Below are positions 6,712 through 25,989 of a stretch of 25,989 nucleotides of DNA, in pieces. Under the pieces are notes generated by a model. It was not told where the DNA came from, did not search any database, and saw only the letters and a program-made list of their open reading frames with translations. Source of the stretch: a virus; the IMG/VR virus record IMGVR_UViG_3300017818_000096, positions 1-25,989 of that record; one strand, given 5' to 3'. A program made the position numbers and the translations under genes. Every line of letters begins with the position of its first letter. Positions within the stretch are counted from its first letter, which is position 1.

Positions 6712-6959
6712 AATTGAGTGAAGAACAAAAACTTATACTAATAACTGACTTTATTGAACAGAAGTTACGTAAAGAGAAAGAACTAGAATTTTATCTAGAA
6801 GAATTGCAAAAATTACAAGTCAAGATTGGCTATCTCCGGAGAGAAGTTGACCTGACTAACACTATTATAGGCATGATTAAAAGCGAACAAGTTTACGACA
6901 TTAAAGATAATATGTTAACAAAAGACAACGTAATTAAATTACCCGAGGAGGACAAATGA
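6708..6959 (+). CDS. Small coiled-coil protein
   Basis: An 83-residue protein whose ATG overlaps the polymerase stop (ATGA), so it is probably translated by coupling. Residues about 3-62 are rich in Glu, Lys and Leu with heptad-like spacing (KLRKEKELEFYLEELQKLQ), indicating a coiled coil. There are no Cys residues and no catalytic motif. Location between the polymerase and a nucleotidyltransferase gene gives no firm hint; a small partner of the replication proteins is possible. It overlaps the next gene by four bases (ATGA). Confidence 0.6.
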   Translation: MKLSEEQKLILITDFIEQKLRKEKELEFYLEELQKLQVKIGYLRREVDLTNTIIGMIKSEQVYDIKDNMLTKDNVIKLPEEDK

Positions 6960-7360
6960 AAGTAGGATTTACTTGTAGTACATTTGATTTGTTACATGCT
7001 GGACATGTAATTATGTTGCGCGAAGCTAAAGAACAGTGTGATTATCTTATATGCGGATTGCAAATTGACCCTAGTGTAGATAGAAAAGAAAAAAATGCTC
7101 CTGTACAGACTGTAGTTGAACGCTACACTCAACTTAAAGCAGTCGGATATGTTGATGAAATTATTCCATATGCTACTGAAAGAGATTTAGAAGATCTATT
7201 ATCTATGTATCCAATTGATGTCAGAATATTAGGTGAAGAGTATAAAAACAAAACATTTACAGGACGATCTATTTGTCTTAAAAGAGGAATAGATCTATAC
7301 TATAATAAAAGAGAACATCGTTTCAGCACTTCAGATTTAAGGAGAAGAGTTTGTGAATAG
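6956..7360 (+). CDS. Glycerol-3-phosphate-cytidylyltransferase-like nucleotidyltransferase
   Basis: This 134-residue protein has the hallmarks of the small cytidylyltransferase family (TagD-like): GFTCSTFDLLHAGHV with the HxGH signature at residues 14-17, and RFSTSDLRRRV near the end, equivalent to the family's (I/F)STSxxxxR(I/V) motif. These enzymes join CTP to glycerol phosphate or a related sugar or alcohol phosphate, giving a CDP-activated product. A strong GAGGAGG precedes the ATG. It is the first of three overlapping sugar-activation genes (with the HAD/PMM and epimerase genes), so a CDP-activated building block for glycan or DNA decoration is likely. The exact substrate cannot be read. 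Confidence 0.8.
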   Translation: MKVGFTCSTFDLLHAGHVIMLREAKEQCDYLICGLQIDPSVDRKEKNAPVQTVVERYTQLKAVGYVDEIIPYATERDLEDLLSMYPIDVRILGEEYKNKTFTGRSICLKRGIDLYYNKREHRFSTSDLRRRVCE

Positions 7361-8069
7361 ATATATTTTTGATGTAGACGGAACTTTAACCCCTAGTAGA
7401 GGATTTATTGATCATAAATTTAAATACTGGTTTTTAGATTTTGTATACAGTAACAATGTATATTTAATAACAGGTAGCGATTATCCTAAAACAGAAGAAC
7501 AACTAGGTACAGTTCTTTGTAATGCAGTTGAACGTGTATATAACTGTTCCGGTAATGACGTTTGGGAAAATGGCCGAAATGTTAGAACAGATGATTGGAA
7601 GTTACCAGTTTCTGCTAGAACATGGTTAGAAGATAAGTTAGAAGAAAGTTCTTTTTCTTTACGTACAGGTTTACATATAGAAGAACGTCCTGGTATGATT
7701 AATTTTAGTGTTGTAGGACGTAATGCAACACATGACGAACGCAAACTGTATGTAGAATACGATCAAGCTCATAATGAAAGAGATACAATAGCTGATTTAT
7801 TTAAATTAGAATTTCCAACATTAGATGCAAGACCAGGCGGCGAAACGGGTATTGATATAGCACCAATAGGAAAAGACAAAAGTCAAATTGTAAACGATTT
7901 TGATTACAATGATGTTTTATACTTTTTTGGTGATAGGATGGATAAGTTCGGTAACGATTATCCTTTAAAGAAAGTCATTATAGAAAATGACTTAGGGTTT
8001 GCTTACCAAGTAACTGGTTGGCAAGACACATGGGAGAAACTTGATGCACATCATGTTAACAGGCCATAG
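7353..8069 (+). CDS. Phosphomannomutase-like HAD enzyme (eukaryotic PMM type)
   Basis: A 238-residue HAD-superfamily protein starting at GTG 7353 after AAGGAGAAG. The N-terminal FDVDGTLTP has the nucleophile D7 and acid/base D9. Further on are ERPGMINFSVVGR, PGGETGID (residues 161-168) and FFGDRMDKFGNDYP (D194, N201, D202). This combination is typical of the eukaryotic-type phosphomannomutase (about 245 residues), which interconverts mannose-6-P and mannose-1-P for GDP-sugar synthesis. That type is unusual in bacteria, where PMM is a larger unrelated enzyme. It overlaps the genes on both sides. A sugar phosphatase of the same fold is the main alternative. Confidence 0.7.
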   Translation: MNRYIFDVDGTLTPSRGFIDHKFKYWFLDFVYSNNVYLITGSDYPKTEEQLGTVLCNAVERVYNCSGNDVWENGRNVRTDDWKLPVSARTWLEDKLEESSFSLRTGLHIEERPGMINFSVVGRNATHDERKLYVEYDQAHNERDTIADLFKLEFPTLDARPGGETGIDIAPIGKDKSQIVNDFDYNDVLYFFGDRMDKFGNDYPLKKVIIENDLGFAYQVTGWQDTWEKLDAHHVNRP

Positions 8070-8787
8070 AGGTTATATAGGTAGTAGATTATTAACTAGG
8101 CTTAAAAAAGAAAACAGTGTAGTTGGATTTGATTTAAAAGACGGTCAAGATCTAAAAACTTGTGAATTAAATGAAAATTTTGATTTAATTATTCATCTTG
8201 CAGGTAAAAGTGGTGTAAGAGAAAGTATTACAGATCCTGGAGGATATTGGCGTAATAATGTAGAAGTAAGTAAAAGAATATTTGCACGTTATCCTGACAC
8301 AAGAATATTATATGCAAGTTCAAGTAGTGCATATGAACCGGATTTAAATCCATATGCGGCAAGTAAGTTTATTGTAGAAGAAGCCGCTGAAAGATATCCA
8401 AATACATTGGGAATGAGATTTCATACTGTATATGATGAAAAGCCTAGAAAAGGAATGTTCCTACAAAAATTATTTGATAATGAATTAGAATATGTAACAA
8501 ACCATCACAGAGATTTTGTACACATAGAAGATGTATGTGATGCAATAGAATTATTAATTAGAAGCACATTCACAGGGATAGTAGATATTGGATCAGGACA
8601 TCCTTTTAAGGTATCAGACTTTGCACCAGACTTGCCCATTCGCCTAAATACACCAAATGAACGTAGTTGGACTTGTGCAAATATGGATAGAATGAAGGGT
8701 TTAGGCTATAAACCTAAATATAGTATAGAAAAAGTCTTGACAAACAACAAGTTAGATAATATAATAAACTTTACAAATGGAGAATAA
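8044..8787 (+). CDS. NAD-dependent sugar epimerase/dehydratase (extended SDR)
   Basis: A 247-residue extended short-chain dehydrogenase. The N-terminal MLTGHRGYIGSRLL is the Rossmann GxxGxxG motif (G7, G10, G13), followed by HLAGKSGVRES, YASSSSAYEP (catalytic Ser region) and Y104-A-A-S-K108, the YxxxK catalytic pair. The C-terminal part has RDFVHIEDVCDAI, typical of UDP-glucose epimerase relatives. It is shorter than the usual 310-330 residues. I start at ATG 8044 behind GGGAGA (8033-8038); a TTG at 8041 and an ATG at 8053 are alternatives. It closes the sugar-activation cassette. A perfect promoter for the next gene lies in its last codons. Confidence 0.85.
   Translation: MHIMLTGHRGYIGSRLLTRLKKENSVVGFDLKDGQDLKTCELNENFDLIIHLAGKSGVRESITDPGGYWRNNVEVSKRIFARYPDTRILYASSSSAYEPDLNPYAASKFIVEEAAERYPNTLGMRFHTVYDEKPRKGMFLQKLFDNELEYVTNHHRDFVHIEDVCDAIELLIRSTFTGIVDIGSGHPFKVSDFAPDLPIRLNTPNERSWTCANMDRMKGLGYKPKYSIEKVLTNNKLDNIINFTNGE
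8737..8765 (+). promoter_or_regulatory. Perfect sigma70-type promoter TTGACA-17-TATAAT
   Basis: TTGACA (8737-8742) and TATAAT (8760-8765) are separated by exactly 17 bases. The promoter sits inside the 3' end of the epimerase gene and gives the clamp-like gene its own transcription unit, starting near 8772. That is only about 17 bases before the start codon at 8789. Confidence 0.75.
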
Positions 8788-13810: not shown

Positions 13811-14141
13811 TAATAAATTGACTGTTGATGTAGGATATTCGGATTATAGTATTGACTGGCAAAATATGAGTACATCAACTATAACAACTACTCCTATAGA
13901 TACAACTTATTCAATTGGAATTGATGATACTATAGATTTAAGCAACATAACTTTTACTGGTATGGATCAAAAAGCATTTGAAGATACTATGCCTAGTTTA
14001 GATAGAGTTAATAATATGTGTGAAGAATATCCAGCACTAGCAAAAGCATATAATAATTTTAAACATGTATACAAATTATGTGAACAAGACTACAAAGGCA
14101 AACTAAAGGAAAGAGGTATTGATGATGAAATTCCTTTCTAA
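13791..14141 (+). CDS. Conserved hypothetical phage protein
   Basis: A 116-residue protein; I use ATG 13791, behind GGAG at about 13777-13781, because the longer reading runs back through the glycosyltransferase gene. The first 60 residues are polar and Thr/Ser/Asp-rich, probably extended or disordered. The C-terminal half, with FEDTMPSLDRVNNMCEEYPALAK split over a short helix pair, looks folded and is similar to a conserved protein I recall from T4-like cyanophages, unchecked. The end, GIDDEIPF, is acidic. Function unknown. Confidence 0.6.
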   Translation: MTQSNNDNKLTVDVGYSDYSIDWQNMSTSTITTTPIDTTYSIGIDDTIDLSNITFTGMDQKAFEDTMPSLDRVNNMCEEYPALAKAYNNFKHVYKLCEQDYKGKLKERGIDDEIPF

Positions 14142-14604
14142 AATTATGGACAAGCTCGGCAGACGTCGAGTAATTACAGACAGAGACGGAAAGGTACCTT
14201 ATCTTATCCGTTATTATCTATTTTTAAAAGAACGAAAAAACTTTCCATTTAATATTACGCTACACAAAGTTCTAGTTAGTGATGAACCTACACTACATGA
14301 TCATCCTTGGAACTGGGGTGCTTTAATTTTAGTAGGCGGATACTACGAATGGATTCCTGTTCATTCTCAAGAGGGTGCAGTAGTAGGTGCAACTAGAGTT
14401 TGGCGTGGACCTGGTAGTATTAGATTTAGAAAAGCAAATGATTTACATTGGTTAGAACTAGCAAAAGATGAAAACGGAAATGAAATTCCATGTACAAGTA
14501 TTTTCTTTATGGGACGCAAATGTAAAGAATGGGGATTTGTAACCCATAAAAAAACACAAGGTTATCGTTGGATACACAATGAGGAATATTTAAATGCTAG
14601 ATAA
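14122..14604 (+). CDS. Cupin-like metalloprotein
   Basis: A 160-residue protein starting at ATG 14122 (or 14125) behind AAGAGG at 14111-14116. The centre carries the cupin-like pattern: TLHDHPWNWGALILVGGYYE, with H59, H61 and likely E as metal ligands, a Gly-rich turn and a later LHWLEL His. The C-terminus, EWGFVTHKKTQGYRW, completes the barrel in related phage proteins. Cupins include dioxygenases and sugar isomerases; the substrate cannot be read. It is followed directly by the phosphoribosyltransferase gene with a 11-base overlap. Confidence 0.6.
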   Translation: MMKFLSKIMDKLGRRRVITDRDGKVPYLIRYYLFLKERKNFPFNITLHKVLVSDEPTLHDHPWNWGALILVGGYYEWIPVHSQEGAVVGATRVWRGPGSIRFRKANDLHWLELAKDENGNEIPCTSIFFMGRKCKEWGFVTHKKTQGYRWIHNEEYLNAR

Positions 14605-15127
14605 AAAAATTTATACTTGGGAAGATATAGAACGTATGTGTGTAAGCATTGTTAATCAAATGTACACAGACAATTGGCGTCCAGATTATATTGTTGGCAT
14701 CACAAGAGGCGGCAATGTTCCTGCCACAATAATAAGTAACATGACTGGTATACGTTGCGAAGCACTTAAAGTTAGTTTACGTGATGCTGTACATGGTTTA
14801 GAAAGTAATAATTGGATGGCTGTTGATGCACTCGGATATCCAGACAGTGACGCTACAGATATGAAAAAGAATATACTTATTGTAGATGATATTAATGATA
14901 CCGGTGCAACATTTAATTGGATCAAAGAAGATTGGCCTGCAGGGTGTTTACCAAGACATGAAGATTGGAATAATGTTTGGGGTAATAATGTACGCTTTGC
15001 AGTTTTAACAGAAAATTTGTCTAGTGAGTTTGATCAAGTTTCTTACTCATGTGACGAAGTTAACAAATTAGAAAAGGATGTATGGTTAGTATATCCTTGG
15101 GAGAACGTAGGAACATATGCAAATTAA
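14594..15127 (+). CDS. Phosphoribosyltransferase (type I PRTase)
   Basis: A 177-residue protein with the PRPP-binding signature ILIVDDINDTGATF; the acidic pair D98-D99 and loop D102-T106 are intact. An upstream GITRGGNVPATIIS supplies the flexible-loop/pyrophosphate region. Type I PRTases link a purine or pyrimidine base to PRPP; the hood that fixes base specificity is not recognisable, so xanthine/guanine-type salvage is only the closest guess. In this phage it could recycle bases released by guanine exchange or host DNA breakdown (inference). GAGGAA at 14581-14586 precedes the start. Confidence 0.8.
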   Translation: MLDKKIYTWEDIERMCVSIVNQMYTDNWRPDYIVGITRGGNVPATIISNMTGIRCEALKVSLRDAVHGLESNNWMAVDALGYPDSDATDMKKNILIVDDINDTGATFNWIKEDWPAGCLPRHEDWNNVWGNNVRFAVLTENLSSEFDQVSYSCDEVNKLEKDVWLVYPWENVGTYAN

Positions 15128-15725
15128 TATGGACAAATTAGATTTATTTCCTGTGCCTTTACTAGGTACAGAATTTCCTAGTGCAGACATTTTAGCAGAT
15201 GTACTAGTACCAAAGATGAAAGATATTGAGTCAAAAGACCAAAATCCTATTCCTTATAGTGCTAATAGTTATACAAATTACAATCCGTATACACAAGCAC
15301 TAGACATGGAAGAATGTAAAGAATTAAAGTCATTTATTGAAGAATGTGGCAAATCTGCTAACAAGTTAATTGGTATAGATGGCGGAATAATGTTTACAGG
15401 TAGCTGGTTTAGTATTACAAGACAGTTTGGAGTTCATCCTGAACATAATCATATTCCTGCTACTTGGAGTGGCGTGTATTATGTACAAGCAAATGAAAAC
15501 GATTCTCCAATAACATTTTTAGATTCTAACAAAAATAGTAATTGGCCTTGGATGCAAACTAATGAAGCAAATTCATATAATACATCTAGCTACAGTATAA
15601 AACCTAAAACAGGTAGATTAATTTTATTTCCTAGTTGGTTGATGCATCGTGTTGACCAACAAATGGCAGATCAGGAAAGAGTAACAATCAGTTTTAACTT
15701 GGCGGCATTACATGAGCAAAAATAA
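15117..15725 (+). CDS. 2OG-Fe(II) oxygenase-like protein (TIGR02466-type)
   Basis: A 202-residue protein of the type common in marine phages: a short LFPVPLLGTEF start, then GVHPEHNHIPATWSGVYYV with H110-x-H112 near the first metal-ligand site, and GRLILFPSWLMHRVDQ with distal H177, followed by RVTISFN where Arg can bind 2-oxoglutarate. The family's substrates are unknown; related enzymes hydroxylate residues or small molecules. It differs from the oxygenase at 371-946, so the phage has two. ATG 15117 follows AGG at about 15108-15111 and overlaps the previous gene by 11 bases. Confidence 0.65.
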   Translation: MQINMDKLDLFPVPLLGTEFPSADILADVLVPKMKDIESKDQNPIPYSANSYTNYNPYTQALDMEECKELKSFIEECGKSANKLIGIDGGIMFTGSWFSITRQFGVHPEHNHIPATWSGVYYVQANENDSPITFLDSNKNSNWPWMQTNEANSYNTSSYSIKPKTGRLILFPSWLMHRVDQQMADQERVTISFNLAALHEQK

Positions 15726-16143
15726 ACCTTGGACTGATGTATTAATAGATACAAAAGACTTTACAGTTTACAAAGACAAATATCCTGTTACAGAAGGACA
15801 TATTCTTTTTGTACCAAAAGAACAAACATGGCAGGATTTAAGTAAGTGTTTCGAAGCCGCATACAAATGGGGCTATGATTGGGTTGATCGCGGATATTGT
15901 GAAGCATTCAACATTGGACAAAACTGTGGAGAAGCGGCAGGTCAAACTATCGACTGGCCACATGTTCATCTTATTCCACGCCGGAAAGGTGACATGAAAG
16001 ATCCAACAGGAGGCGTTAGGCACGTTATACCAGAAAAAGGCAATTACAAAACAAATGAAATATATAAAAAAATAAACGGCAATTATACTACGCAAGAAGT
16101 TGTAGATGCTACTAATAAGATCTTAGAAGGAGATTTATGTTGA
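15712..16143 (+). CDS. HIT-family nucleotide hydrolase-like protein
   Basis: A 143-residue histidine-triad protein. It has the family layout (DTKDFTVYKDKYPVTEGHIL, then FNIGQNCGEAAGQ) and a catalytic segment QTIDWPHVHLIPRRKGD that lines up with FHIT-type QTVKHVHVHVLPR. The first His of HxHxH is W82 here; H84 (equivalent to the nucleophile) and H86 remain. HIT enzymes cleave nucleoside phosphoramidates, AMP esters or diadenosine polyphosphates. Loss of the first His is unusual but does not remove the nucleophile. It overlaps the neighbours at both ends and may serve nucleotide metabolism. Confidence 0.85.
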   Translation: MSKNKPWTDVLIDTKDFTVYKDKYPVTEGHILFVPKEQTWQDLSKCFEAAYKWGYDWVDRGYCEAFNIGQNCGEAAGQTIDWPHVHLIPRRKGDMKDPTGGVRHVIPEKGNYKTNEIYKKINGNYTTQEVVDATNKILEGDLC

Positions 16144-16343
16144 AACAAAGATTGATTGAAGCGGCAAGAGCCCATGCAGAAGCAGAAGTCAAACTGCATA
16201 AAACAAACATTGATGTATACATGGAAAAAGTTGTAGGCATCGGTGAGCATTCTGACATCATCGAAACTATCCAAAAAGAACTTGATGCTATGGCACAAGC
16301 AGATGATAGATTAGAAATGTTAAACAAATATTTTAATGACTAG
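16137..16343 (+). CDS. Conserved small hypothetical protein
   Basis: A 68-residue helical protein starting at ATG 16137, overlapping the HIT stop, with AAGGAG at 16127-16132 as ribosome site. The sequence has a helix (LIEAARAHAEAEVKLHKTN), a short turn with GIGEHSDIIE, and a second helix to the end (DRLEMLNKYFND). I recall a similar small protein with an IGEHSDI-type core from T4-like cyanophages, unchecked. Function unknown. It overlaps the SGNH gene that follows by eight bases. Confidence 0.6.
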   Translation: MLKQRLIEAARAHAEAEVKLHKTNIDVYMEKVVGIGEHSDIIETIQKELDAMAQADDRLEMLNKYFND

Positions 16344-17157
16344 AACACTTTTTATTGGCGACAGTCATACCTGCGGATACAAAACAAAAGCTGGAGAAGT
16401 TGGTCCTGATAGTTTTACTAACTGGAACGATAACAGCTATGTTTTAGAATATGCAAAATTAAATAATAAAAAATGTATTGTCTATGCTATGCCCGGTGCA
16501 AGTATTAGACAATACACTGATTACATACGAGCAATGTTTAACAAGTACAATGACATTGACGAAGTATTTGTTCTATTAAGTAGTCTTAATAGATTTACAC
16601 TATCTTTTAATCAAAAACTTTCTCCTGATATAGTACCTGTTGATCATTTTACTCACGATGTAGGCACAACTGAAGATGGCCTAGTTGATAGATATATGGA
16701 CAAAACTATTGAAGGAGACTATTTTCAATTATATCAAAAGCCCCATCAAGGAGATTATGAAAATTTTCCTGGACTTAAATTTAGTTATGAACAGGGATTG
16801 ACAGAGCCTGATATAAGAAAATCTTCTTATATGGACATTAAAACTTTCTTTGAATTGAACACACATCTAGAACAAAGAGACTTTTTTAAGGACATTTATG
16901 TATGGGATAATATGTGTGCAGACTATAATGTTCCTTTGTATCTTTTTAAAATGCGTGAAAGAACATTCTTTCCGGAAGGTTATGAATTTTACGGAAAACT
17001 TAAAAACACAACTATTGCAGATCAAAGTATTGAATTATATTTCCAAAACAAGCAAATTAACCACGAAGCATACTTTTTGGAAGATAAAGAGCATTATAAT
17101 ACCAAATTTCACAATCTTATTGCAAAAAATTACATAAAACACTTGACAAAAACCTAA
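16336..17157 (+). CDS. SGNH-hydrolase-like protein (GDSH type)
   Basis: A 273-residue protein with the SGNH block I TRTLFIGDSHTCGY (S10 in GDSH), a Gly-containing block II (YAMPGASIRQYT), an Asn in LLSSLNRF that fits block III, and H253 in KEHYNTKFHN as the possible catalytic His. GDSH-type members act as esterases or acyltransferases on glycans and lipids. It is larger than the other SGNH protein here (193 residues) and shares only the motif. The promoter for queE begins within its last codons. Substrate unknown. Confidence 0.6.
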   Translation: MTRTLFIGDSHTCGYKTKAGEVGPDSFTNWNDNSYVLEYAKLNNKKCIVYAMPGASIRQYTDYIRAMFNKYNDIDEVFVLLSSLNRFTLSFNQKLSPDIVPVDHFTHDVGTTEDGLVDRYMDKTIEGDYFQLYQKPHQGDYENFPGLKFSYEQGLTEPDIRKSSYMDIKTFFELNTHLEQRDFFKDIYVWDNMCADYNVPLYLFKMRERTFFPEGYEFYGKLKNTTIADQSIELYFQNKQINHEAYFLEDKEHYNTKFHNLIAKNYIKHLTKT

Positions 17158-17174
17158 ATATAGTATATTATAAT
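17143..17174 (+). promoter_or_regulatory. Probable sigma70-type promoter for queE
   Basis: TTGACA at 17143-17148 lies in the last codons of the SGNH gene. With a 17-base spacer the -10 is TATTAT (17166-17171, five of six); a full TATAAT at 17169-17174 has a 20-base spacer. Either way the unit starts with queE and can run through the RNase H gene to 20231. Confidence 0.55.
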
Positions 17175-17193
17175 ACAATATAGGAGTAGTAAG

Positions 17194-18087
17194 TTGAAGC
17201 TAAGATATTCAGAAGCATTTTATTCAGTACAAGGTGAAGGCAAATTTGTCGGCGTACCTAGTGTATTTTTACGTACATTTGGTTGTAACTTTCGTTGCAT
17301 GAACTTTGGTACAGATGAGACTAGAGATCGTTGGGAACAACACAAAGACGGAAAAAGGCACAATGCTGAAGTAAAAGCATTACTTGATGCAGATGTGCAT
17401 AAAACTACAGAAAAATTTGAAGACTTGCCTATCATTCACACAGGTTGTGATACATATGCAAGTATCTATCCAGAGTTTAAACACTTCAACAAACTTGCAG
17501 AAGTTGACGAAGTTGTTGAACATCTACTTTCACTTACTCCAGAAGGTAAGTGGACAATGGACAATGGACAAGATGTACACTTGATTATGACAGGTGGTGA
17601 GCCTTTGTTAGCGTGGCAAAAGCTATACATCGAACTATTTGAACATCCACGCATGAGGGATTTGAAAAATGTTACATTTGAAACAAACACTACACAAACA
17701 TTACACGACGAGTTCTTCGATTATCTCAACAATCAAGACAGATTTACAATCACTTGGAGTTGTTCCCCAAAACTTAGCGTTTCAGGAGAACCTTGGGATA
17801 CTGCTATACTGCCTAACATTGCTCATGAGTATAGCCTTGTTGACGGTAGCGACATGTATCTTAAGTTTGTTGTCGCTAACGAAAACGATATTAATGAAGC
17901 TGGTAGAGCTGTCGAAGCATATAAGAAAGCAGGAGTGGAATGTCCTGTTTACTGTATGCCTTTGGGTGGACGCAGTGAAGAATACAATCTTAATGTCAAA
18001 GAAGTCGCAGAAGTCTGTATGCAAAGAGGATGGCGATTTACACCCCGACTCCACATATCGCTATTCGGAAATGCCTGGGGAACTTGA
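17194..18087 (+). CDS. queE: 7-carboxy-7-deazaguanine synthase (QueE), insert-containing
   Basis: A 297-residue radical-SAM enzyme that converts 6-carboxytetrahydropterin to 7-carboxy-7-deazaguanine. Seen: YSVQGEGKFVGVPSVFLR at the N-terminus, then C31-x3-C35, but position 38 is Phe, not the third Cys of CxxxCxxC. The third Cys appears at C85 in TGCDTYAS, after about 46 inserted residues, still followed by the expected D-T. Then MTGGEPLLAWQ (G134-P137). I recall such a split in marine phage QueE but have not checked it. It starts at TTG 17194 with TAGGAG seven bases upstream. It works with the DpdA-like and QueD-like proteins; QueC and FolE are not in this window. Confidence 0.85.
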   Translation: MKLRYSEAFYSVQGEGKFVGVPSVFLRTFGCNFRCMNFGTDETRDRWEQHKDGKRHNAEVKALLDADVHKTTEKFEDLPIIHTGCDTYASIYPEFKHFNKLAEVDEVVEHLLSLTPEGKWTMDNGQDVHLIMTGGEPLLAWQKLYIELFEHPRMRDLKNVTFETNTTQTLHDEFFDYLNNQDRFTITWSCSPKLSVSGEPWDTAILPNIAHEYSLVDGSDMYLKFVVANENDINEAGRAVEAYKKAGVECPVYCMPLGGRSEEYNLNVKEVAEVCMQRGWRFTPRLHISLFGNAWGT

Positions 18088-20582: not shown

Positions 20583-20977
20583 ATTGGAAATTAACCTACA
20601 CAAAAATCTTCTTAAAAAATGCTGACATAACTGTAAATGAAGCAAATATAAAAGAATACATGCCTGTTTGGTGGCAAAACATCAGACAGAAAGAAAGTGG
20701 TGGGTTAAGATTAACAGACGATGGAATAATGTTTGTAAAAGAGAAACTAGGATTATCTACTTACGATGTTCCATTTCCAGCAGATTTTAAATTAACAACA
20801 CAAACACTAATTTGGTTAGACCAATTTATTGATTGTCCGTACTGGTTAGGAACACACGGAATAGTTGTAACAAACGAAAAAAAAGCTGTCGAACTACATC
20901 TTTTCAGTGGAGATGTTAAGAAATACGGCCTCCAAAAAGCATTAACTAGGCAAAAAAAAGAATCCAAAAGTGGTTGA
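20579..20977 (+). CDS. Conserved hypothetical phage protein
   Basis: A 132-residue protein coupled to the previous gene by ATGA overlap. It is aromatic-rich (EYMPVWWQNIRQK, TTQTLIWLDQFIDCPYWLG) with a basic tail (KALTRQKKESKSG). The single Cys and lack of catalytic motifs give no function. The GIVVTNEKKAVELHLF strand pattern suggests a mixed alpha/beta fold. It is probably from the same late unit as 20295-20582. Its last bases hold the -35 of the MoxR promoter. Confidence 0.6.
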   Translation: MNWKLTYTKIFLKNADITVNEANIKEYMPVWWQNIRQKESGGLRLTDDGIMFVKEKLGLSTYDVPFPADFKLTTQTLIWLDQFIDCPYWLGTHGIVVTNEKKAVELHLFSGDVKKYGLQKALTRQKKESKSG

Positions 20978-21002
20978 CCTTTGTTTATAAAGGTGCTATA
21001 TT
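20974..21002 (+). promoter_or_regulatory. Sigma70-like promoter with inverted repeat in spacer
   Basis: TTGACC (20974-20979) and TATATT (20997-21002) are 17 bases apart, ahead of the MoxR gene. A perfect 6-bp inverted repeat, ACCTTT-N6-AAAGGT (20977-20994), overlaps the -35 and fills the spacer, a position where a bound repressor or activator would act. A weak RNA hairpin is the alternative. Confidence 0.55.
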
Positions 21003-21057
21003 AGTATTATACTAATTAAGTATGGCACTGAAAAAAACACAAGAAGAGGAATACACA

Positions 21058-22140
21058 ATGGAAACTACTGCACTACGCACTGTCACTCCTAATGGGGCTA
21101 AGAAAAGTATCCTTAGGGCATTTAAAAAACAACGACCTATCTTTATTTGGGGACCTCCAGGTATTGGTAAGTCAGATATTATTCACCAAATTGGACGTCA
21201 AATTGAAGGTCATGTAATCGATGTTCGTTTATCACTATGGGAACCTACAGATATTAAAGGCATTCCCTATTATGCGGCAAATGACAATATTATGGCTTGG
21301 GCACCACCCGCAGAACTGCCCGATGCAAAACTAGCAAAAAAACATAAATGGATTATTTTGTTCTTAGACGAAATGAATTCAGCCGCTCCAGCAGTACAAG
21401 CCGCGGCATATCAATTAATCCTTAATCGTAAAATTGGTCAATATGTACTTCCAGACAATGTTCTAATTGTTGCGGCAGGTAACAGAGAAACTGACAAAGG
21501 TGTTACATATAGAATGCCTGCTCCGTTAGCTAACCGTTTTGTACACTTAGAAATGGCTGTTGACTTTGATGACTGGTTTGCTTGGGCTGTAGAAAACAAC
21601 CAGCACAAAGATGTAATTGGATACTTAACTTTTGCGAAGAAAGATTTATACGATTTCGATCCTAAGAGTCCGAGTCGTTCATTTGCTACACCACGTAGTT
21701 GGTCATTCGTAAGTGAACTACTTGAAGATGAAGAGGACGAAGTAACCACAACAGATCTTGTTAGTGGTTCAGTTGGAGAAGGATTGGCTGTCAAGTTTAT
21801 GGCGCACCGTAAGGTTGCATCACAAATGCCTAACCCAACTGACATACTTGCAGGTAAAGTTAAAGAGCTTAAAAACCAAGAAATCAGTGCCATGTATTCC
21901 TTGACTATTTCGCTCTGCTATGAACTCAAACAAGCATCAGATAAAAATGATAAAAAGTTTGATTCAATGGTTAACAACTTCCTGCGATTTGCAATGGATA
22001 ACTTTGAAACTGAACTTGTTGTTATGGGTATTAAAGTTGCTATTACACAATACCAACTTCCAATTGATCCAGACGAAGTTGAATGTTTCGATGAATTCCA
22101 TGACCGTTTTGGTAAGTATATTAAGGCGGCAAACACATAA
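21058..22140 (+). CDS. MoxR-type AAA+ ATPase
   Basis: A 360-residue AAA+ ATPase. I use ATG 21058, eight bases after GAGG (21046-21049); ATG 21022 in the same frame has no good site. Walker A is WGPPGIGKS (G32-S39), Walker B ILFLDEMN (D104-E105), sensor 1 VAAGN (N142), and an Arg-finger-like ANRF follows. A C-terminal helical region of about 150 residues finishes it. MoxR ATPases remodel partner proteins, often VWA-domain proteins encoded next door, and a VWA/HExxH gene lies next. The pair is unusual in a phage. Own promoter; the gene is closed by a strong hairpin. Confidence 0.9.
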   Translation: METTALRTVTPNGAKKSILRAFKKQRPIFIWGPPGIGKSDIIHQIGRQIEGHVIDVRLSLWEPTDIKGIPYYAANDNIMAWAPPAELPDAKLAKKHKWIILFLDEMNSAAPAVQAAAYQLILNRKIGQYVLPDNVLIVAAGNRETDKGVTYRMPAPLANRFVHLEMAVDFDDWFAWAVENNQHKDVIGYLTFAKKDLYDFDPKSPSRSFATPRSWSFVSELLEDEEDEVTTTDLVSGSVGEGLAVKFMAHRKVASQMPNPTDILAGKVKELKNQEISAMYSLTISLCYELKQASDKNDKKFDSMVNNFLRFAMDNFETELVVMGIKVAITQYQLPIDPDEVECFDEFHDRFGKYIKAANT

Positions 22141-22166
22141 GGTAAAAGGGGGCAACCCCTTTTACC
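22141..22166 (+). terminator. Strong intrinsic-type hairpin after the MoxR gene
   Basis: It begins directly after the TAA at 22138-22140. GGTAAAAGGGG (22141-22151) and CCCCTTTTACC (22156-22166) form a perfect 11-bp stem closed by GCAA, a GNRA tetraloop, followed by ATTTTACTT. The T tract is short, so termination may be partial, or the stem may protect the 3' end of the MoxR mRNA. Confidence 0.75.
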
Positions 22167-22173
22167 ATTTTAC

Positions 22174-22202
22174 TTGACACAATGGCACATATTTGTTATA
22201 GT
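22174..22202 (+). promoter_or_regulatory. Sigma70-type promoter for the VWA gene
   Basis: TTGACA (22174-22179) and TATAGT (22197-22202) are 17 bases apart, eight bases after the hairpin. The -10 has one mismatch. It lets the VWA gene be transcribed separately from the MoxR gene. Confidence 0.65.
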
Positions 22203-22228
22203 AAATATATAAACAGAGGACATGGCAC

Positions 22229-23539
22229 ATGAGTTATCCGTTAAGAAACATAGAAGGTAAAAAACACTGGCAACCTAATCCAGATATTACACAAGAACAA
22301 CTTGAAGAAATGAGAGTTGAAGTTCTTGATCGTATCATTGTTGCTCGTGTAGGATTGTTGCTAAGACATCCTTTCTTTGGTAATATGGCAACACGTTTGC
22401 GTATTGTTGCCGCAGACGACTGGTGTCCTACAGCCGCAGTAGACGGCAAAAACTTATATTACAATACACAATTCTTTAATGCAATGGATAACAAAGAAAT
22501 TGAATTTGTTATTGCACATGAGATTTTACATTGTGTATTTGACCATTTAGCTCGTAGAGAAGATCGTAATCCGTTAATTTATAATATTTCTGCAGACTAT
22601 AAAGTTAACAATACACTAGTTAGAGAAAAAATAGGCCAGATGCCTAAACTAGTTGATTGCTTCCAAGACTTTAAATATGAAGATTGGACTTCAGAAGAAA
22701 TTTATGACGAGCTGTACAAAAAATACGATGAAGAAGAATTAAAACAACTAGGTGAACTTTTAGACGAACACATTGACTGGGAAAAAGGTGAAGGCGATAC
22801 ACAAGGTGCTAACAGTCAACCTGGCAAAGATAAAAAAGGTAATACTGAAAGTAAAAAGAAACCTAAATATACAAAAGACGAACTAAGAAAAATTAGAGAT
22901 GAAATTAAAGAAAACATGATTTCATCTGCACAATCTGCAGGTGCTGGTAATGTTCCTAGTGGAGTAGAACGTTTAATTAAAGAACTTACTGAACCTAAAA
23001 TGAACTGGCGTGATATACTACGTCAACAAATCCAAAGTACTATTCGTAATGATTATACATTTAGCCGTCCTTCACGTAAAGGTTGGCATACTGGTGCGGT
23101 TTTACCAGGAATGAATTTTATGGAAACTATTGACATTTGTGTTGGACTTGATATGAGTGGTTCAATTGGAAATAGTCAAGCAAAAGATATGATTAGCGAA
23201 ATCAAAGGTATTATGGATGAATACAAAGATTACAACTTAAAAATTTGGTGTTTTGATACTGAAGTTTACAATGAACAAGACTTTAGTGCAGACAATGGTT
23301 CTGATATATCAGATTACGAAATCTACGGCGGCGGCGGTACAGACTTTGAATGTAACTGGAAATACATGAAAGAAAACGATATTGTTCCTAAAAAGTTTAT
23401 CATGTTTACTGACGGTTACGCATGGGGCAGTTGGGGTGACGAAGATTACTGTGATACTGTTTTTATTATCCATGGTAACAAAGATAAATCAATTGTAGCA
23501 CCATTTGGACAAACGGCATACTATGAGGAAAATGCTTAA
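22229..23539 (+). CDS. HExxH metallopeptidase-like protein with C-terminal VWA domain
   Basis: A 436-residue protein with two parts. The N-terminal half has the zinc-peptidase motif AHEILHCVFDH (H97, E98, H101) and resembles the putative metallopeptidase domain found before VWA-like domains (DUF2201 type). A charged linker (about 175-215) follows. The C-terminal half is a VWA-like domain with an intact MIDAS: DMSGSIG (D308, S310, S312), GGGGTDF (T371, D372) and FTDGY (D395). Together with the MoxR ATPase it forms a MoxR/VWA pair, in which the ATPase probably loads or remodels this protein. Protease target unknown. ATG 22229 follows GAGGA at about 22215. Confidence 0.85.
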   Translation: MSYPLRNIEGKKHWQPNPDITQEQLEEMRVEVLDRIIVARVGLLLRHPFFGNMATRLRIVAADDWCPTAAVDGKNLYYNTQFFNAMDNKEIEFVIAHEILHCVFDHLARREDRNPLIYNISADYKVNNTLVREKIGQMPKLVDCFQDFKYEDWTSEEIYDELYKKYDEEELKQLGELLDEHIDWEKGEGDTQGANSQPGKDKKGNTESKKKPKYTKDELRKIRDEIKENMISSAQSAGAGNVPSGVERLIKELTEPKMNWRDILRQQIQSTIRNDYTFSRPSRKGWHTGAVLPGMNFMETIDICVGLDMSGSIGNSQAKDMISEIKGIMDEYKDYNLKIWCFDTEVYNEQDFSADNGSDISDYEIYGGGGTDFECNWKYMKENDIVPKKFIMFTDGYAWGSWGDEDYCDTVFIIHGNKDKSIVAPFGQTAYYEENA

Positions 23540-23795
23540 AGAACCTAACCCAAAAAACGTATTTGAGAACAGGAGTATGCCTGTGCCTCCACCTCATTTT
23601 GAGTATACAGAAATGGAATTTAGGTATAATATGGAAAATGTTGTTCATGATTGGATATATGACAATCTAAAAGGCAGATTCTATGTTGGTAAAAGCACTG
23701 ATCAAACCCACAATACTATGTTAAAAATAGGATTTGAAGAAGGTAAAGAACTTTCCTATTTCAGTTTGGCATGTCCACATCTAAAATACAAATAA
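23523..23795 (+). CDS. Small hypothetical protein
   Basis: A 90-residue ORF starting inside the end of the VWA gene. ATG 23523 and ATG 23532 are both possible, and an upstream in-frame TTG (23505) less so; the ribosome site is weak, so expression may depend on coupling. The protein has a polar N-terminus, a PVPPPHFEY segment and an amphipathic second half (RYNMENVVHDWIYDNLKG, then KELSYFSLACPHLKY). Contact with the VWA/MoxR proteins is possible because of the overlap. No family recognised. Confidence 0.5.
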   Translation: MRKMLKEPNPKNVFENRSMPVPPPHFEYTEMEFRYNMENVVHDWIYDNLKGRFYVGKSTDQTHNTMLKIGFEEGKELSYFSLACPHLKYK

Positions 23796-25065: not shown

Positions 25066-25989
25066 ATGAGTTTAAGAATTAGAAGAGGAACCGACGCAGA
25101 GCGCCAAACGGTCACCTTTCTTGAGGGAGAGTTAGTTTATACTACGGATACCAAGAAAGTATTCATAGGTGACGGTGCTACACTAGGCGGTGTATCGGTT
25201 GACAGTACTACAGGATCGATTAACAATCTAACAGACGTTAATACAGCAGGCGTACAAATAGGACAAATCCTACAATGGAATGGATCTTCATTTGTACCAG
25301 GAGAACAAGGTGAAGGCCGCAGTATATTTGGCCAAGATAGCACACTACTTGTTGATGCAACAAACAGTTCAATTAATTTAGACGGTACAGTAAAAGGCCA
25401 CGTTGTACCAGATCAAAACATTGCTTACGATTTAGGCTCCGCAAGCAACAGATTTAGAGACTTATATTTAAGTGGCACATCTATTAATTTAGGCGGTTCA
25501 ACAATTACTTCAAGTGGTGGTAAAGTTAGTTTTAGTGAACCAGTTGTTGCACAATTTGAACAGTCAGGCAACACAGATTTAAAAGACAATTACATTACAA
25601 ATACAGCAGTAGGCGGTGCAATTAGTTTACGTCCTGCAGTCAATTCTAATATGAATGTAGCTACAACAGGTGGAACAGTTGTATTTAAAGTAGACTTAGC
25701 GGCTAACTCATTTGGTGCTAATGATGACGCAGTTTTACAACTTCCAGTGTTTGAAGCGGCGGACTTTACTGCACATTCAGCTCTAGCTGGACAAGTTGTA
25801 TTTGATAATTCAACAAAAGGTTTAAAAGTATACAACGGTACAGGATGGGCATCTGCAGGTGGTGCAGGTGGCGGAGGTATTGTTGAAGGCAATGCATACC
25901 GTATTAATATTGTAGACGCAGGTAGTACAGTAGTAGTAAACACTGACACTGGTGTTGTTACAGCAAACCTAACAGGTGATGTAACAGGT
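25066..25989 (+). CDS. Tail-fibre-like structural protein (3' end beyond window)
   Basis: The frame is open from ATG 25066 (CAGGAG at about 25052-25057) to the last base: 308 codons without a stop, so the gene is truncated by the window. The N-terminus, SLRIRRGTDAERQTVTF, LEGELVYTTDTKKVFIGDGA, is the short module found at the start of many phage tail-fibre and structural proteins (Mtd N-terminal-like). Then come GIVYDLGS-type repeat elements (NIAYDLGSASNRFRDLYLSG), beta-rich stretches, a Gly-rich segment GGAGGGGIVEG and the start of a TGDVTG repeat. It is probably a host-recognition fibre or baseplate-attached fibre expressed late. Confidence 0.85.
   Translation, partial: MSLRIRRGTDAERQTVTFLEGELVYTTDTKKVFIGDGATLGGVSVDSTTGSINNLTDVNTAGVQIGQILQWNGSSFVPGEQGEGRSIFGQDSTLLVDATNSSINLDGTVKGHVVPDQNIAYDLGSASNRFRDLYLSGTSINLGGSTITSSGGKVSFSEPVVAQFEQSGNTDLKDNYITNTAVGGAISLRPAVNSNMNVATTGGTVVFKVDLAANSFGANDDAVLQLPVFEAADFTAHSALAGQVVFDNSTKGLKVYNGTGWASAGGAGGGGIVEGNAYRINIVDAGSTVVVNTDTGVVTANLTGDVTG

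Follow-up and report, generated by a model that had tools for sequence, protein, structure and literature searches.

The 26 kb virus record IMGVR_UViG_3300017818_000096 (25,989 nucleotides, referred to in its entirety as the window) encodes, side by side, a MoxR-type AAA+ ATPase and a partner protein in which a putative metallopeptidase domain is fused to a VWA domain. We propose, with a probability of roughly 0.5, that the two constitute an ATP-driven remodelling machine of large tailed phages, acting early or midway in infection on a substrate that belongs to the host or to the replication phase of the phage. The pair itself is real, conserved and widespread, and was known earlier: Iyer et al. 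(2021; PMC7824862) described it in group 2.2 jumbo phages (ASV44729.1/ASV44728.2, the Atu_ph07 genes of our locus L082), and its phage N4 members, gp24 and gp25, figure in published core-gene lists of N4-like phages (PMC4193335, PMC7650795). The new contribution lies in the evidence on timing, conserved promoters predicting early or middle action, contrary to the sole published proposal. We consider the interest moderate, in that the parts themselves are not new while an old question is now cleanly testable: the invariant residues offer clean point mutants in a pair that is core to N4-like phages and recurs in unrelated giant phages. A first-pass annotation of the window had called such a machine little described. 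That stands as regards functional tests, since literature searches, with most subscription journals outside their reach, found no experiment on the pair; it does not stand for the fusion and the pairing, published in 2021, or for the listing of gp24 and gp25 as core genes.

The ATPase and its partner

The pair and a small gene that follows it occupy three plus-strand open reading frames at 21022-22140 (372 amino acids), 22229-23539 (436 amino acids) and 23505-23795 (Table 1). The first-pass annotation had noticed a MoxR ATPase next to an HExxH/VWA protein, an observation confirmed by the reading frames, the Pfam and PHROG matches and the motif residues alike. The start that it gave, 20974, lies outside the MoxR gene, at the point where the -35 hexamer of a sigma70-like promoter opens; the gene itself probably begins at the ATG at 21058, Met13 being near-invariant among homologues.

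The ATPase matches phrog_1297, described as 'ATPase', at 5e-101 (339 bits). The Pfam families AAA (9e-8) and AAA_5 score above cut-off and AAA_3 falls just under it (24 vs 27 bits), while a sequence-profile comparison yields midasin at 9e-26. Across 51 non-redundant homologues G47, K50, E117, N154, R172 and R225 are invariant; N154 would be sensor 1, with R172 a candidate arginine finger and R225 a candidate sensor 2. The predicted model, with a mean pLDDT of 90.8, superimposes best on a dynein AAA module (Z 17.3) and on CbbQ and NorQ (Z 15.6 each), and also on NorQ within NorQ-NorD VWA complexes (Z 14-15.6). Membership of the MoxR group is borne out by the AAA+ core residues, by a fold of the MoxR/helix-2-insert type and by the adjoining VWA partner gene. 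Two more specialised systems were considered and rejected. For the ternary conflict system of MoxR, vWA and beta-propeller/VMAP proteins, bpMoxR (PF20030) scores 20.5 bits against a cut-off of 27 and EAD7 20.5 against 32; for the cobalt chelatase CobS/CobT, the CobS-like phrog_249 scores 26.8 bits compared to the 339 of phrog_1297.

The partner matches phrog_1314 at 4e-112, and its two domains, PF13203 and PF09967, both exceed the Pfam gathering score. The presence of an intact HExxH motif together with an intact metal ion-dependent adhesion site (MIDAS), asserted in the first-pass annotation, is upheld, and these residues are near-invariant among 69 homologues of less than 85% identity. Of the peptidase residues, H97, H101, D123 and N127 are found in all 69 and E98 and H106 in 68, while the five MIDAS residues D308, S310, S312, T371 and D395 are each present in 69 of 69. 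To judge by these alignments, the conservation of the active-site and MIDAS residues is not due to chance and, since the key residues of both proteins are invariant, ATPase and partner are under strong selection as working units. The only homologue lacking E98 is ASV44728.2 of Atu_ph07 (L082:5941-7230), the protein cited as the type example, which reads HQILH and keeps both histidines.

D123 lies 22 residues past H101 in the next predicted helix, a placement like that of the ExxxD of gluzincins, and is a candidate third zinc ligand in which Asp would replace the usual Glu. By sequence, the solved structures closest to the peptidase segment are the MJ1213 entries 4qhf-4qhj, which match at E 4e-4 to 7e-4, followed by an M48 peptidase (E 1e-3 to 9e-3), in both cases over the HExxH helix. 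We take MJ1213 to be a minigluzincin. The predicted model of the partner contains a VWA fold (best Z 12.6).

Distribution of the pair

Among 50,697 phage records searched, 743 contain a homologue of the partner and 800 one of the ATPase. Twenty annotated phage records were inspected, and every one has both genes: Atu_ph07, Phosso, PA5oct, N4, rV5_ev158, G, RaK2, SCTP-2, GAP32, CRP-7, RHph_Y2_6, PBS1, S-TIM5, phiTE, DL64, 2L372D, nACB1, Vibrio 2.275.O, Thermus phiFa and AR9, the last five having been checked by profile. Of 154 fetched loci, 151 likewise have the two together, with a shared strand in 150; the remaining three are cut by a contig end, at which the partner gene lies. Pairing is universal in this sample; the survey of co-occurrence that the first-pass annotation had suggested comes out in favour of a genuine phage-coded pair, and against genes rarely found together in relatives. 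The phages concerned differ in tail type, including short-tailed N4-like, contractile jumbo and rV5-like representatives. A mirror-tree comparison gave a MoxR-VWA distance correlation of 0.84 over 48 common loci, not above that of controls such as MoxR-FEN (0.89); because control gene pairs correlate as strongly, it is uninformative on physical interaction.

A scan of genome contigs produced a sole match, PBPT01000016.1 (locus L085), a 335 kb contig assigned to a Candidatus Neomarinimicrobiota metagenome-assembled genome, in which this block of genes recurs with 74% identity. The contig is phage-like and is probably that of a giant phage binned with the bacterial genome. Distant bacterial relatives, at 25-28% identity, are found on plasmids. 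One such record, CP057073.1 (E. coli, 137,565 bp), has the partner gene at 25% identity as in rV5-like phages, which it also resembles in length, and is possibly a phage genome placed in a plasmid collection. In several unrelated lineages (L086, L089, L091, L093, L095 and L157) a thymidylate synthase or dCTP deaminase gene is situated no more than some 6 kb from the pair, a proximity that may be due to chance.

Promoters and timing

Each gene of the pair is preceded by a strong sigma70-like promoter that is kept in relatives. Among non-redundant relatives, sites matching at least 10 of 12 consensus positions lie upstream of MoxR in 45 of 65 cases and of the partner in 40 of 67, compared to shuffled means of 3.9 and 3.8; at a threshold of at least 11 of 12 the figures are 21 of 65 and 33 of 67, for a shuffled mean of 0.3. 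Kinship of the loci inflates these counts somewhat, but the in-locus control genes, which share the same kinship, have such sites in only 0-13% of cases, save for the FEN-type exonuclease, a replication gene, at 69%; in this comparison MoxR stands at 69% and the partner at 58%. A terminator-like hairpin separates the two genes and recurs in around 22 of 27 clade relatives, its stem letters differing while pairing is kept. With a promoter for each gene and the hairpin between them, MoxR and partner are probably transcribed as separate units, each by a host-type RNA polymerase.

An incomplete gene at 25066-25989 of the window matches the Major tropism determinant N-terminal domain (Mtd_N) at E 5e-10, and its product is likely a tail or receptor-binding protein. 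If, as we assume, the T4 late motif is used in this clade, the late-like [TC]ATAAATA offers a contrast: it precedes the Mtd_N-type tail gene in 14 of 28 cases, and ATAAATA stands before the window's own copy, whereas it is found before the pair in 0 of 132.

Data from better known phages point the same way. N4 gp24 and gp25 are reported to be middle transcripts (PMC4193335), and in the AR9 record an early promoter is annotated immediately before the pair. The AR9 genes g028/g029 are not mentioned by name in the text of the transcriptome paper on that phage. Taken with the sigma70-type promoters, these observations favour early or middle action.

Possible function of the pair

In the machine that we envisage, the MoxR protein would assemble into an AAA+ ring, as its family leads one to expect, and the partner would dock on that ring by its VWA/MIDAS domain, by analogy with NorD on NorQ. 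Docking would place the gluzincin-like zinc peptidase domain next to a substrate pulled by the ring, the most likely outcome being that one specific protein, or a few, is remodelled and cleaved to a limited extent. Because each gene in the clade has its own strong sigma70-type promoter, the machine would most likely be made early or midway by host RNA polymerase, and with such expression its main substrate is more likely to come from the host or from the replication or transcription apparatus of the phage than to be a late virion protein.

Several points weigh against this proposal. The pair adjoins virion structural genes in RaK2 and GAP32, and the PA5oct ATPase carries an electrospray ionisation tandem mass spectrometry (ESI-MS/MS) note, as do the structural proteins of that record, but also its RNase H. 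Promoter matches differ from expression data, and early promoters are compatible with later use. The peptidase fold is putative: fold searches used the complete model of the partner and are swamped by VWA matches, so that the lack of a peptidase fold among them does not count as a negative result. The HQILH of Atu_ph07, finally, may mean that catalysis is not always needed, some phages perhaps doing without cleavage, or the change from E to Q may be a sequencing error.

A bolder version can be entertained tentatively, as a speculation that we think probably overreaches. The pair would be a widespread early ATP-powered zinc protease with one conserved host or replication-phase target, a MoxR ring with a VWA-tethered gluzincin as counterpart of the AAA+ proteases. 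If true, an early zinc protease would be shared by phages as unrelated as N4 and phage G.

The main rival is the published proposal for these same proteins, by which the pair is a virion-assembly chaperone and processing peptidase that remodels and cleaves structural proteins in maturation; Iyer et al. (2021; PMC7824862) put forward such a role in assembly, peptidolytic processing included, on the model of the MoxR-VWA system of Acidianus two-tailed virus. The flanking structural genes of RaK2 and GAP32, the mass spectrometry note on the PA5oct ATPase and the Mtd_N-type tail gene 1.5 kb downstream of the pair in the window agree with it. Set against these are the sigma70-type promoters, the late-like motif that is present at the adjoining tail gene and absent before the pair, the middle class of the N4 genes and the early promoter in AR9; moreover, occurrence across different tail types makes a tail-specific role unlikely. 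On this evidence we regard virion maturation as an unlikely, though serious, explanation.

The second rival, which we hold to be improbable, is activation of a metalloenzyme by metal insertion in the manner of NorQ/NorD, CbbQ/CbbO or CobS/CobT, the client being for example an enzyme of deoxynucleoside triphosphate metabolism and the zinc domain having a binding and not a cleaving role. CbbQ and NorQ are indeed the best cellular structural matches with a MoxR role, Atu_ph07 has Q in place of the catalytic E while preserving both histidines, and genes for thymidylate synthase or dCTP deaminase are near the pair in the lineages listed above. Yet E98, needless for pure binding, is otherwise kept throughout, the CobS-like family scores far below phrog_1297, and a constant client gene beside the pair was not found.

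That the partner is an HNH endonuclease, as the description of phrog_1314 and many RefSeq phage records name it (N4 gp25, RaK2 and phage G included), has next to no probability and is refuted on sequence grounds, PF13203 and PF09967 spanning the protein and no HNH family matching at E 0.1. This misleading name appears to be a propagated annotation error, perhaps copied, as an open reading frame of a Roseovarius phage, labelled 'putative HNH endonuclease', is cited in the RaK2 record. In the AR9 record, by contrast, the protein is named 'zincin-like protease fused to vWA domain'.

Genomic setting

The DNA polymerase encoded in the window is 51% identical to that of Sinorhizobium phage Phosso and 43% to that of Agrobacterium phage Atu_ph07, and gene order around the pair is common to the window and these phages. 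By these measures its source is a relative of the two giant phages. Other genes of the kind carried by giant phages, with metabolic functions, are located at 6956-8787 and 14119-18087: nucleotidyltransferase-like, phosphomannomutase (PMM), NAD-dependent epimerase, cysteine dioxygenase-like, phosphoribosyltransferase, 2OG-Fe(II) oxygenase and QueE-like radical SAM.

The overlap of a small gene with the end of the partner gene, reported in the first-pass annotation, is present, its extent now refined according to the choice of ATG (Table 1). The small gene is recognisable in 107 of the 154 loci, every one a jumbo-phage relative, and was not seen in the N4, G, RaK2 or PBS1 lineages among them; since it is absent there, it is not a core part of the system.

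Table 1. Coordinates of the pair, its motifs and nearby elements in the window.
Feature	Position	Strand	Basis or remark
Sigma70-like promoter of MoxR gene, TTGACC-17-TATATT, 10/12	20974..21002	+	Motif match; kept in relatives
MoxR-type AAA+ ATPase, phrog_1297	21022..22140	+	Pfam, PHROG, alignment, predicted model
Walker A GPPGIGKS, G47 and K50 invariant	21151..21174	+	Alignment of homologues
Walker B ILFLDE, E117 invariant	21355..21372	+	Alignment of homologues
Terminator-like hairpin GGTAAAAGGGGGCAACCCCTTTTACC between the two genes	22141..22166	+	Strong hairpin; relatives compared
Sigma70-like promoter of VWA gene, TTGACA-17-TATAGT, 11/12, TG before -10	22174..22202	+	Motif match; kept in relatives
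Metallopeptidase-VWA fusion protein, phrog_1314	22229..23539	+	Pfam, PHROG
DUF2201_N putative metallopeptidase domain PF13203, residues 39-285	22343..23083	+	Pfam 1e-43
HEILH zinc-binding motif, residues 97-101	22517..22531	+	Alignment of homologues
Invariant DxxxN (D123, N127) in next predicted helix	22595..22609	+	Alignment; helix prediction
VWA-like domain PF09967, residues 304-430	23138..23518	+	Pfam 2e-12; model fold
MIDAS DMSGS (D308, S310, S312), with T371 (23339-23341) and D395 (23411-23413)	23150..23164	+	Alignment
Small downstream gene, ~90 amino acids	23523..23795	+	ATG 23532 or 23523, overlapping the partner end by 8 or 17 bases

Comparison with known systems

The bacterial systems NorQ/NorD, CbbQ/CbbO and RavA/ViaA resemble the phage pair in combining a MoxR ATPase with a VWA partner and in the fold of the ATPase. 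They act on NO reductase, on Rubisco and on respiratory or decarboxylase complexes. To our knowledge the partners NorD, CbbO and ViaA are without an N-terminal HExxH peptidase domain. Among viruses, the MoxR-vWA pair of Acidianus two-tailed virus is also virus-coded and is tied to virus assembly, but is described as having no peptidase domain (PMC7824862), the distinction resting on that description rather than on sequence comparison.

The phage relatives are closer. The N4 gp24/gp25 pair and those of other Schitoviridae are homologous to that of the window and have the same gene order, but the N4 proteins, annotated as ATPase and 'HNH endonuclease', are only around 24-32% identical to those of the window and are encoded near dCTP deaminase and rII genes. 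The Atu_ph07 pair (PMC7824862) shares the families, the domain fusion, the pairing and neighbouring homologues with the window. It differs in having HQxxH where the window has a full HExxH, and the role in virion assembly published for it contrasts with the earlier action to which the promoters point here.

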